Virus record (IMG/VR): IMGVR_UViG_3300033388_001694
Coordinates: 1 to 24,687 of that record
From: a virus
Direction: 5' to 3' (one strand)
Length of the DNA stretch: 24,687 nucleotides
Under the pieces are notes generated by a model that was not told where the DNA came from, searched no databases, and saw only the letters and a program-made list of their open reading frames with translations. Of the stretch, positions 17,486-22,203 are shown piece after piece. A program made the position numbers and the translations under genes. The number at the start of each line of letters is the position of its first letter. Positions within the stretch are counted from its first letter, which is position 1.

Positions 17486-17501
17486 AATTTCTAAGATTTT
17501 T

Positions 17502-17510
17502 TAAGATTTA
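17502..17510 (-). promoter_or_regulatory. Leader element TAAATCTTA before the 53-aa gene
   Basis: One of four exact copies of this 9-mer on the minus strand, each within about 30 bases of a start codon (others at 19591-19599, 19824-19832 and 20611-20619). Here it is followed by AAAAAATCTTAG rather than by the AAAACTTCAA core. Confidence 0.4.
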
Positions 17511-18292
17511 ACATAAGGATGAGAGTTTGACCTTTTCCATCAGCATTATTTACCATTTCTAGTACCAACCCACACATACATTACTGCATGTAACTGACAT
17601 ATTCACGAGTTCAAGTGCTCGCCACTATTACTATCAAGGACATAAATTCATTTTCTTGCCAAGCTCCTTGCGGGATAAACAGACGGCAATCTGTTACTTA
17701 GACAATACTCAATCCATTCACATTAGGCCTTGCGAGCTTTATCTGTGTCTACATATTACAGTAGAATAAGAACATTGTTAACCGACTTAACGGTAACTTG
17801 ATAGTCTCCATGTTATTTTGCTTTCTATTTGCTTTTTTATCTTGTTTTTAGCATACCGACTTAACGGCTTAATAGGATTCAGGGATTTGATAGAAGGCAC
17901 ATAGAGTTTATATAACCATGCTTCCTTTTGAGAAGTTTAGGCTATTACTCCTACCTACTTTCAAGCACCACTGCTTTACTCATTGTTCTTAACCGTATTG
18001 ACACAGTATTTCTACTAGCATCTAACTAAGTTCTAATTACAGCTTCCTGATTGGTGGTCAGTACTACCATAACTTATTACAATTCTTATTGCTATTTCTA
18101 GCTCAACAACTTGTCCTGTACAAGCCGTCTATACATCTAGGTCACCTCAAGAGGATTTTACCTGCCAACATATAGATATTGTAATACCTTTCAGTGAAAT
18201 GCAGTAAACTACATCGCAAGAGTTTTCCAAGAACTCATCGCTTTATACCATTGCTGGTTTATCCTTATGGTCACGAAGGCTGACCAATATGT
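17511..18292 (-). ncRNA. Long non-coding stretch with many hairpins, candidate large structured RNA
   Basis: About 780 bases with no convincing open frame on either strand, in an otherwise gene-dense genome. Read on the minus strand from the L7/L12-like gene, local stems include TGGTCA / TGACCA (18283-18265), GAGTT / AACTC, CTTGT / ACAAG, GCTA-GAAA-TAGC with a GNRA loop (18102-18091), AAGCA / TGCTT, two ACCG/CCG-TTAAGT-CGG hairpins with identical loops (17848-17863 and 17779-17795), AACAGA / TCTGTT, CGAG / CTCG and TACAT / ATGTA. No tRNA was recognised. The size fits phage large RNAs such as ROOL or GOLLD, but I cannot confirm a family by eye. Confidence 0.5.
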
Positions 18293-20226: not shown

Positions 20227-20489
20227 GACAACATTCCCTTTCTTTTCATTTCATCTCTTATTAGAGCAGCTTCATCATAATTTTTATTTCTAACTGCTTC
20301 TTGTTGTTTATTTTTTAATCTCTCTTTCTCAGCAGGTATTTTAATAGTTTCAATGTGGATACTTAAAAAAGGAATAAGTATGATGTATTCTCTCTTTATT
20401 TTACCATTTCCATATCGGAAATGATTAGTACCAATACCTACAGCTATTGCAGGCATTTTTTCGGTATAAATACGTCTTTTAGTTAGCAT
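20223..20489 (-). CDS. 88-aa protein with a UVR motif
   Basis: The C-terminal part, residues 53-84 (KERLKNKQQEAVRNKN followed by YDEAALIRDEMKR), matches the UVR motif (A-x-x-x-x-x-Y/F-E-x-A-A-x-x-R-D-x-I/M) found in UvrB, UvrC, McsA and ClpC, where it mediates protein-protein contacts. The N-terminal half is beta-rich (PAIAVGIGTNHFRYG, REYIILIPFLSIHIETIKIP). There are no nuclease residues. It may bind a host repair or protease component. Its ATG is six bases from a leader motif and overlaps the 42-aa gene; its TGA overlaps the next ATG. Confidence 0.72.
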   Translation of the reverse strand: MLTKRRIYTEKMPAIAVGIGTNHFRYGNGKIKREYIILIPFLSIHIETIKIPAEKERLKNKQQEAVRNKNYDEAALIRDEMKRKGMLS

Positions 20490-20611
20490 AATTTTGAAGT
20501 TTTTTTATGTTTATACTTTCTAGTGTATTTCTTTTTATTACGATGTACACTAGGTTTCATCGCATCATATATCTCTTTCATAGATACCTGAATAGTTTGA
20601 AGTTTTTTCAT
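20483..20611 (-). CDS. 42-aa very basic peptide (hidden small gene)
   Basis: ATG at 20611 gives MKKLQTIQVSMKEIYDAMK and a Lys/Arg/His-rich end, stopping at TAA inside the next gene's first codons (7-base overlap). The upstream TAAATCTTA element includes the T of the ATG. The AAAACTTCAA core falls inside codons 2-5 instead of before the ATG, so the true start could be the ATG at codon 11 or 18. The overlap and leader favour translation; a nucleic-acid-binding peptide is plausible from charge. Confidence 0.5.
   Translation of the reverse strand: MKKLQTIQVSMKEIYDAMKPSVHRNKKKYTRKYKHKKTSKLC
20496..20503 (-). promoter_or_regulatory. Leader motif before the UVR-motif gene
   Basis: Minus strand reads AAAACTTCAAAATTATG, spacing six bases. 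The motif lies inside the coding part of the upstream 42-aa frame, again pointing to translation initiation. Confidence 0.5.
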
Positions 20612-20626
20612 AAGATTTAATATTAG

Positions 20627-20693
20627 AGGCAAAGATGAGATTCGAACTCATTATCTGTTGGCAGATTCCTATCAGTTCACTCAGATTATTGCC
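20627..20693 (-). tRNA. tRNA-like element (possible decayed tRNA-Gly)
   Basis: The 3' side has a perfect T arm (ATGAG-TTCGAAT-CTCAT) with all conserved loop bases, followed by CTTTGCC and a T at the discriminator position. The 5' end GGCAA pairs with TTGCC. Between them are a weak ATC / GAT arm and a strong ATCTG-CCAA-CAGAT arm. T-GCC-A occurs where a glycine GCC anticodon would be, and T73 fits tRNA-Gly, but the anticodon stem does not form in the standard register and the D loop lacks GG. No CCA is encoded. So a pseudo-tRNA, or the tRNA-like end of a longer RNA. Confidence 0.4.
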
Positions 20694-21008
20694 TGAATGC
20701 TGCATTGCCTTATAAACTGAGCAGTTTGTCTTCATACTCAGGAATACGCTGTTGCAGTATCCTCATAAGATACTACTTTGTGTCAAGCACGTGTACAGCC
20801 TTTCTAGATTTAATTAGAGTGCTTATCTGTCTATGACAGCTGATACTATTTCAGAATAATCAGTGGTATTGCTTGACTCATTTCTCTAATTTAAAGAGGA
20901 ACTCAGGCTTAGCACTTAGGCTTTCCATTTTAATCTAAAACAGTATGCATCCTGTAATAGAACCACAAGATGTAAACATCTCTGTATTGTTCCTCTAATT
21001 TAATGTTT
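20694..21008 (-). ncRNA. Non-coding stretch next to the tRNA-like element
   Basis: About 315 bases without an open frame. On the minus strand AGAGGAAC (20996-20989) can pair with GTTCCTCT (20900-20893), enclosing an AGATG-TTTA-CATCT hairpin. TTAAATTAGAG is repeated at about 21003 and 20892. It may form one RNA with the tRNA-like element, about 370 nt, similar in size to tmRNA; however no tmRNA-type 5' acceptor half or tag frame was found. Confidence 0.4.
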
Positions 21009-21113
21009 TTATTCTTCTACTATACTACCACCATCTGAATGCATAGCACAGTAGTATGTACCAACAAGCATTAGTATTGCTGCTGGGATTTCCCATAATA
21101 AATGATATTCCAT
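21009..21113 (-). CDS. 34-aa single-span membrane peptide (hidden small gene)
   Basis: ATG at 21113 gives MEYHLLWEIPAAILMLVGTY followed by YCAMHSDGGSIVEE and a TAA stop. Residues 4-24 form one hydrophobic span with an acidic C-terminus outside it. It stands alone between non-coding stretches, with no overlapping partner. The regular span and in-frame length are the only support for it. It could be a small holin-like, antiholin or membrane-modulating peptide. Confidence 0.5.
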   Translation of the reverse strand: MEYHLLWEIPAAILMLVGTYYCAMHSDGGSIVEE

Positions 21114-21147
21114 ATGTTCTAAGTATTAAATGATTAATATAAAGTTA

Positions 21148-21174
21148 CCTACATCAGTAGCGAGCTGATGTAGG
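21148..21174 (-). terminator. Strong hairpin, end of the candidate 21.2-21.8 kb RNA
   Basis: Perfect 10-bp stem: 21148-21157 pairs with 21165-21174 (CCTACATCAG / CTGATGTAGG), 7-nt loop. On the minus strand it is followed by TAACTTTATATT, a poor U-tract, so it may be a terminator or a stable 3' end. Confidence 0.55.
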
Positions 21175-21805
21175 ATTACAGTTAATGCAGGCACCTACTA
21201 ATAGATGTTACAGGCATTGTTCCAGGACTGTTAACTCCTCAAGTTTAATCCCACAACTTTTAGTGAAGTGGGTCATTATGATTCCATAATGTATTCAGTT
21301 ATAAAGCATTTCACGCATTTGGTGATTCCGTCCTTATAACCTATAGTTACAATCTTTTCTTTACCTCCGTCTTATTCAGTATACTAAATAAGAGACCTTT
21401 GTTTTCGAGGGGTTATGTGGGTTCACGTCCTAACTGATTGTGACCACGCGTCCTGGGACTTGTAGTATTACTACTACCTTTATAAGTTTAAGCTATAATT
21501 AATTATAAGCCTTGCTAATCAACGTCCTCTTAGAACTGCTGATTAGCGTTGCTAACGGTTTGTAACAGAAGAAAGTTACACAACAATTAGCCTTTGAGCC
21601 ACGCATAAAGTCTATGCGTTAGGATTTACGGTCCACGAGCGTGGTGTCCGCACTCCATTATGAATGATGTAATCCATAACTTCACAGTGTTATGAGTCCT
21701 AATAGGACTCTGGTTAAACAATTAATACGAATAGAGTATGCACGCGACACACGTTTGGAGTATGCACGTAACACGCGACAAGGGCCGAGGCCCTAAGCCT
21801 CACTC
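21175..21805 (-). ncRNA. Large structured non-coding RNA candidate
   Basis: About 630 bases without an open frame, richer in G+C than nearby genes. Minus-strand stems, in order: AGGGCC / GGCCCT; GAGTCCT / AGGACTC; CATAAC / GTTATG; CCACG / CGTGG; ACGCATA / TATGCGT (5-nt loop); GTAAC / GTTAC; GCTAATCA / TGATTAGC; a TATAAT / ATTATA palindrome; GTAGTA-GTAA-TACTAC with a GNRA loop; TCTTATT / AATAAGA; CATTATG-GAAT-CATAATG; CCCAC / GTGGG; AATGC / GCATT enclosing CATCTA / TAGGTG; and the 10-bp hairpin at 21148-21174. That density supports an ordered RNA. A ROOL- or GOLLD-type large phage RNA is possible; no family could be verified. Confidence 0.55.
21734..21777. repeat. Two 20-bp direct repeats, 24-base period
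   Basis: GAGTATGCACGCGACACACG at 21734-21753 and GAGTATGCACGTAACACGCG at 21758-21777, identical at 17 of 20 positions. They lie just downstream of the 84-aa gene on the minus strand, in a G+C-rich setting, and may be protein-binding sites or paired elements of the candidate RNA. Confidence 0.7.
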
Positions 21806-22060
21806 CTAGAGTGAGAACTTAGCAGTCCCTGCCTTGTTAGTAACCCAGTAGATTACCTCGTCAGCGTCCACGCTGAAATCGTCTCCGTCTGTAGCCAAGT
21901 AAGCGTGAGCGGTAAGCTCAGGGTCAAAGTCTACTGTAGTGATGAAGATGATGCCTGTTGCGTCGTCTGATGCTACGTTACGTCCGCTCTCGTTAGTAGA
22001 TGCGAAGAAGTCTAGAGTAACGATTCCGTGCTGTGCTTTGATGTCTGATAAAAGTGCCAT
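21806..22060 (-). CDS. 84-aa protein with strongly biased codons, probably abundant
   Basis: First leftward gene after the divergent region. Codons end mostly in C (GAC, ATC, TTC, AAC, TAC) or in selected T/A forms, unlike the AT-ending codons of all other genes, which suggests very high expression or recent acquisition. The protein is acidic and beta-rich (GIVTLDFFASTNESGRN, ATGIIFITTVDFDPELT, DDFSVDADEVIYW). No domain recognised. Its stop codon sits in the loop of a hairpin (CTCACTC-TAG-GAGTGAG). ATG is six bases from the AAAACTTCAA motif. Confidence 0.75.
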   Translation of the reverse strand: MALLSDIKAQHGIVTLDFFASTNESGRNVASDDATGIIFITTVDFDPELTAHAYLATDGDDFSVDADEVIYWVTNKAGTAKFSL

Positions 22061-22066
22061 AATTTT

Positions 22067-22074
22067 GAAGTTTT
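22067..22074 (-). promoter_or_regulatory. Leader motif before the 84-aa gene
   Basis: Minus strand reads AAAACTTCAAAATTATG, spacing six bases, preceded by TTAAATC. It is the same arrangement as at 20496-20503. Confidence 0.5.
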
Positions 22075-22089
22075 GATTTAATGAATGCA

Positions 22090-22147
22090 GGGGACTAGTT
22101 CCCCCGCCAAGCTTTAGCGAGGGTCGTTGATGGTGTTGGTAACCATC
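22090..22147 (-). promoter_or_regulatory. Structured leader with mutually exclusive hairpins
   Basis: Three stems can form on the minus strand. GATGGT / ACCATC uses 22129-22134 and 22142-22147. CCCTCGC / GCGGGGG uses 22117-22123 and 22101-22107 and includes a U-G pair that exists only in the minus-strand RNA. GGGGA / TCCCC uses 22100-22104 and 22090-22094. The last two share 22101-22104, so they cannot form together. This is the architecture of an attenuator, riboswitch or protein-controlled leader of the 84-aa gene. No metabolite class was recognised. Confidence 0.5.
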
Positions 22148-22203
22148 TCTACATCCACAACAAAAAAAATATAATAGGGGGGATGTTTTTTAGAAATTTT
22201 GTA

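Follow-up and report, generated by a model that had tools for sequence, protein, structure and literature searches.

A patchwork of small pieces around a conserved 21-aa ORF, not one large RNA, near the head of a leftward operon in a crAss-like phage

What does a phage keep in 658 nt that hold no ORF of at least 60 aa? The question arises at positions 21148-21805 of a 24,687-nt stretch of viral DNA from IMG/VR (hereafter the window), where a first-pass annotation had proposed a large structured RNA of unknown class and pointed to ROOL and GOLLD. ROOL and GOLLD are large phage/prophage RNAs of unknown function that lie near tRNA islands (PMC12286853), and the interval resembles them in being phage-encoded, several hundred nt long, and close to tRNA-like elements. 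We find that the interval is instead a patchwork of small pieces, not one large conserved RNA.

The window comes from a virus record whose DNA polymerase, primase, helicase, and RIIB-like genes are most like those of crAss-like phages (Crassvirales, e.g., Bacteroides phage crAss001), the polymerase being 35-39% identical to crAss-like records. This likeness does not extend to the conserved leader and the micropeptide described below, neither of which was matched by any of 50,697 phage records at the search sensitivity applied. Genes point leftward below ~22.06 kb and rightward above ~22.65 kb, so the finding concerns the minus strand, on which the interval lies directly 3' of an 84-aa gene. 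It is part of an accessory island (~20.6-22.2 kb) with which the leftward operon opens in this crAss-like clade. The island combines a conserved leader at its 5' end with small first genes that replace one another, micro-ORFs, and small RNA elements that recur, some of them tRNA-like.

In the window, 1316 nt separate the first gene from the next ORF of at least 70 aa, and in related phages the same gap is mostly 400-1970 nt; the median gap in the operon is 24 nt. In crAss001, early, middle, and late modules track gene orientation, and the middle genes are largely replication genes (PMC8375218); by analogy, the island would be co-transcribed with the replication operon. Intrinsic terminators and sigma-70 promoters are not above chance frequency in the region. 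The leftward operon contains a second long stretch without ORFs of at least 60 aa (17491-18292, minus strand), ~95% identical in the related contig L005; a 658-nt segment from 17550 folds little better than its shuffles (z -0.75). The interval and the gene before it contain the following features, listed 5' to 3' on the minus strand.

21806-22060, minus strand: 84-aa GC-rich gene, first of the leftward operon (homologues 75-100% identical)
21694-21710, minus strand: hairpin GAGTCCT-ATT-AGGACTC, 5' of the micro-ORF (kept in L009 apart from one change in the loop)
21612-21677, minus strand: micro-ORF of 21 aa, MDYIIHNGVRTPRSWTVNPNA and stop (peptide HMM, frame-specific selection, start context)
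21601-21619, minus strand: stop-codon hairpin ACGCATAG-ACT-TTATGCGT, holding the micro-ORF's final codons and stop
21490-21591, minus strand: three stable consecutive hairpins (21551-21591, 21514-21547, and 21490-21512), the last ending in TATAGCTTAA
21183-21478, minus strand: 296-nt lineage-specific segment in which the GTAA and GAAT tetraloop hairpins lie (absent from L009/L004)
21148-21174, minus strand: 10-bp 3' hairpin CCTACATCAG-CTCGCTA-CTGATGTAGG (93% identity in L009, one A-U replaced by G-U)

The stems on which the large-RNA proposal was built do exist on the minus strand: GTAGTA-GTAA-TACTAC at 21462-21477, CATTATG-GAAT-CATAATG at 21274-21291, and the 10-bp hairpin at the 3' end. The interval is also G+C-richer than its surroundings, as had been said (0.407 vs 0.318 for the window), though the neighbouring 84-aa gene is richer still (0.486). 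Its minus strand folds better than dinucleotide shuffles (z -6.9, -7.8, and -6.6 in three runs, the last with 60 shuffles), and its plus strand does so more weakly (z -3.3). However, 34 minus-strand control windows, each as long as the interval, had a mean z of -2.6 (sd 1.6, 15 shuffles each), because minus-strand sequence of this phage generally folds better than shuffles. At 15 shuffles the interval (z -5.6) ranked third of 35, and at 60 shuffles its z of -6.6 beat the five strongest controls re-tested (best -5.2). Since the controls fold well too and the interval came third at 15 shuffles, folding energy alone is a modest argument. The local signal is concentrated in 21441-21840, above all in 21479-21600 (z -4.8, with 0/200 shuffles as good).

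Homologous contigs were gathered via the 84-aa protein and two neighbouring proteins, and several of the resulting loci are fragments. Aligning homologous regions, a check that the first-pass annotation had itself suggested, went against its reading. In four close relatives (L004, L005, L008, and L009) whose flanks are 96% identical to the window, 21479-22197 (the gene plus the region's 5' half) is kept at ~84% identity, 21183-21478 is missing with ~60 nt in its place, and the 3' hairpin then returns (21139-21182). Both quoted tetraloop hairpins fall within the missing 296 nt, for which blastn found no match in the other loci. Among more distant phages no RNA of the interval's length aligns, an outcome of the kind that the first-pass annotation had listed as refuting its idea; blastn beyond the close group gave short motifs only, and comparison of the region's DNA with 50,697 phage records yielded just two weak 44-nt matches. 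The suggested covariance search was unfavourable: neither the window nor 11 relatives reached the gathering score of any Rfam family, so membership in ROOL, GOLLD, OLE, or HEARO is rejected. At E<=10, positions 20400-22200 gave only SAM-III (21.2 bits vs a cut-off of 45) and Clostridiales-2, weak matches that are probably due to chance.

A single large ornate RNA is unsupported, because the best-conserved part is a coding micro-ORF that shares sequence with a hairpin, 296 nt are missing in L009, Rfam gives no match, and the rest is unalignable beyond the species group, with compensated changes only at the stop hairpin. Unlike ROOL and GOLLD, the region has neither an Rfam match nor a conserved fold across relatives, nearly half of its length is absent from a close relative, and it carries a conserved coding micro-ORF. 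One could still propose a new class of large structured RNA, specific to the species group and variable in length, that overlaps a short ORF by chance. Such an RNA would fit the rank of the interval as the strongest folder among the 658-nt stretches of the window that were re-tested, as well as the survival in L009 of the 3' hairpin and most of the 5' half, and GOLLD, too, is part conserved and part variable, with tRNA islands nearby (PMC12286853). However, only two variants are known, one of which dispenses with 296 nt, and neither the restriction of demonstrated covariation to the stop hairpin nor the failure to align the remainder beyond the group is what it would lead one to expect; we consider it improbable. 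What stands of the structured-RNA claim is the elements themselves, of which one hairpin has compensatory support.

The three hairpins of 21490-21591 are nearly unchanged in L009, and the one at 21490-21512 is similar to a hairpin that in other phages comes second after the micro-ORF. The sequence TATAGCTTAA is not over-represented in the window, and no intrinsic terminator was found at the hairpins. A 56-nt block over most of the micro-ORF and its hairpin (21598-21653, minus strand) is strongly different in L009 while both sides are nearly identical, a pattern that suggests local replacement or diversifying selection.

The interval had also been described as having no open frame, which is correct for ORFs of at least 60 aa but overlooks the conserved 21-aa ORF, noticed by reading related regions side by side. 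A peptide HMM places it in 24 of 40 distinct non-redundant leader-bearing contigs; several of the other 16 end before its position, and it is absent from some (e.g., L038, L040, L044, and L052). The peptide consensus is (M..)IVNGVVTxxxWLxNPNA followed by the stop, with a total length of 19-25 aa. The last 16 residues are gap-free across 20 members, the N-terminus is variable, and a W and an N-x-N-[AGS] motif are conserved at a fixed distance from the stop. Three members (L031, L032, and L035) keep the N-terminal half and have a different C-terminal half.

Selection on the micro-ORF is frame-specific: the in-frame pN/pS of 0.53 compares with 1.08 and 1.10 when the frame is shifted. Outside the hairpin the values are 0.63 vs 1.20 and 1.08, and inside the hairpin region the in-frame value of 0.41 is again below the other frames. 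These values are averaged over saturated comparisons, so the argument lies in the contrast between frames and not in the value. Start contexts score above background ATGs (p=6e-9, 22 members) and below those of long ORFs (p=3e-4). The micro-ORF shows purifying selection in one frame and keeps its start and stop across relatives, the signature of a protein-coding microgene. The micropeptide has no recognisable domain, and we found no description of it in the literature. Against phage records, tblastn of two micropeptides and of the 84-aa protein gave nothing or weak mycobacteriophage matches, and none of the small genes and RNAs of this clade could be matched to PHROGs, Pfam, or Rfam.

Compared with control ORF stops, the stops of the micro-ORFs sit in higher-scoring hairpins (p=1.5e-9). 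Among the 13 contigs whose peptide ends in Asn-Ala, the Ala wobble base pairs as A-U, G-C, C-G, or U-A and the Asn wobble base as C-G or U-A, neither pair ever being broken, as counted on hand-anchored arms with the best-pairing 3' arm chosen. Arms were anchored by hand because the multiple alignment was too gappy, and RNAalifold found no consensus pairs in a long alignment of 18 micro-ORF regions because loop lengths vary. For example, between the window and L009 the synonymous change from AAC-GCA-TAG to AAT-GCG-TAG is matched by changes in the 3' arm. At the level of sequence, such synonymous compensated changes indicate joint selection on the peptide and the RNA.

The sequences show the conserved ORF, its frame-specific selection, the compensated stop hairpin, and the presence and absence of pieces; the steps of transcription, translation, and processing, and any role in infection, are inferred. 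Our preferred reading, to which we give a probability of about 60%, is a patchwork whose core (~21490-21710) is a micropeptide gene with a stop-codon hairpin followed by more hairpins, these hairpins probably bounding the transcript. The micro-ORF would most likely be transcribed together with the 84-aa gene, and its 21-aa product would be translated. The stop hairpin and those that follow would set the unit's 3' boundary, either stabilising or processing the RNA or limiting expression beyond it. The segment 21183-21478 would be a lineage-specific structured insert, and 21148-21174 a capping hairpin.

A free micropeptide whose hairpin protects or bounds the transcript is thus ranked first, and a termination-sensing leader peptide second. 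TnaC and the Erm leader peptides are regulatory leader peptides, and the micro-ORF is like them in having ~20 codons, conserved residues at a fixed stop distance, and overlapping hairpins. C-terminal residues could slow or stall the terminating ribosome, whereupon the stop hairpin would stay open and downstream expression would change. Most members have the combination that marks arrest leaders (exceptions are L031, L032, and L035), and the gap-free C-terminus, the fixed W and N-x-N-[AGS], and a stop codon inside a conserved hairpin with a second hairpin behind it all suit this mechanism. However, those three members share the N-terminal half with another C-terminus, many phages have no large ORF for 600-1900 nt downstream, and the micro-ORF does not precede a known regulated gene as TnaC and Erm leaders do; no alternative pairing or terminator came to light. 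We regard a leader peptide as rather unlikely, and the free micropeptide remains our preferred reading.

The rest of the island is built of further small pieces, again listed 5' to 3' on the minus strand.

22082-22165, minus strand: conserved 5' leader of the 84-aa gene (..AACGACCCYRCTAAA..GGNGGGGGAA...CCCC..), found with nhmmer
21009-21113, minus strand: second micro-ORF, 34 aa, probably membrane-spanning (similar peptide in L013)
20889-20999, minus strand: RNA-like element of ~105 nt closed by AGAGGAAC/GTTCCTCT (93-94% identical in L013/L030 and L066)
20624-20709, minus strand: tRNA-like element with T-arm ATGAGTTCGAATCTCAT and acceptor-like ends (one mismatch) but lacking normal D and anticodon arms (read from the sequence)

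The leader is found in the related contigs that cover its position, and where the small first gene is present it stands in front of that gene. Genes behind it are often GC-rich and are interchangeable, other phages having other small protein families, mutually dissimilar, in the same slot. AlphaFold gave no usable model for the 84-aa protein (pLDDT 44) and a good one for the YGxPLY family (pLDDT 87) with no significant PDB match; profile comparison did not join the two. In ~40 related contigs the leader consists of a C-run, a T-rich stretch, GTGGTTA.CACC.., ACCCCYACTAAA.., and GG..GGGGAA.....CCCC. Its GGGG could base-pair with the CCCC on either side and so might act as a switch; RNAalifold found no covarying structure in the leader alignment. 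An exact-pattern scan of IMG/VR with the leader core returned 6 stretches, at least 3 of them already among the collected contigs. The start context of the 34-aa ORF scores 3.6 against a background mean of -2.9.

Proximity to tRNA-like genes, another part of the original claim, holds for the element at 20624-20709, but ARAGORN finds no tRNA or tmRNA in the window or 18 related loci. A 90% identical copy of this element occurs in L032; taken by itself, the element is predicted to fold no better than its shuffles (z -1.0). It is one of five such elements of 64-86 nt, the others being L065:1844-1907(-), L066:2097-2160(-), L072:516-586(-), and L056:844-925(-). All five have a canonical T-arm and acceptor stem without normal D/anticodon arms, and three end in CCA; they could be decoys for tRNA-targeting factors.

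Other modules recur as well, their order and content varying between phages. The 105-nt element is kept in L013 and L066 although the surrounding sequence differs. An RNA-like module of 75-160 nt, whose middle varies between constant ends (TACTCTCATCCAAGCAGG and CAAGGRTTGCAACCTTGTGAGAGTA), is carried by L046, L049, L055, L057, L059, L067, L070, L071, L072, L077, and L032, and its end stems covary in L049 (TACTTTCA/TGAAAGTA). At 20712-20760 (minus strand) the motif GTATACCTGAGCATGTAGACAAACTGCTC accompanies a short hairpin with covarying arms (AAGCA/TGCTT, GAGCA/TGCTC); about a dozen phages have it. A small hairpin around TTCCCAAGG (L046, L047, L059, L061, L070, and L071) has arms that vary yet stay complementary: CTAC/GTAG, CTATC/GATAG, and CTCAC/GTGAG.

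Phage tRNA clusters can also carry small stable RNAs, as in T4. The island resembles them as an operon region with small structured RNAs and tRNA-like elements whose content varies between related phages; it differs in having no detected functional tRNA, no normal D/anticodon arms, and micro-ORFs interspersed. A Ro/TROVE RNP, in which a TROVE protein binds a tRNA-like Y RNA, was an idea prompted by the crAss001 paper (PMC8375218); it was dropped because the TROVE domain, PF05731, was absent from 14 records, several of which are 84-91 kb and may be incomplete, in a search whose control matched 1/14 known genomes.

Pieces that are so rapidly gained and lost might be no more than degenerate intergenic DNA, gene relics and mobile fragments whose hairpins are merely recombination junctions, and the control windows, too, outfold their shuffles. 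However, the micro-ORF, the leader, and the 105-nt element are conserved across phages, and the synonymous compensated changes also speak against decay; we find this explanation very hard to credit. A bolder interpretation is an undescribed phage control element, in which a 19-25-aa peptide gene, its last sense codons and stop held in a hairpin through compensated synonymous change, would form a translation-termination switch heading the replication operon, within an exchangeable small-RNA island. We offer it tentatively and think it rather unlikely.

The exchangeable first gene behind a fixed leader would be a likely slot for host-takeover or counter-defence genes. For the interval itself, something testable takes the place of a vague giant-RNA call, namely a micropeptide gene conserved in an environmental crAss-like clade, its stop codon lying within a hairpin. 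If translated, the micropeptide adds a family of very small phage proteins hidden by length cut-offs, and if the hairpin unit controls termination, it would be a new phage means of setting operon expression.
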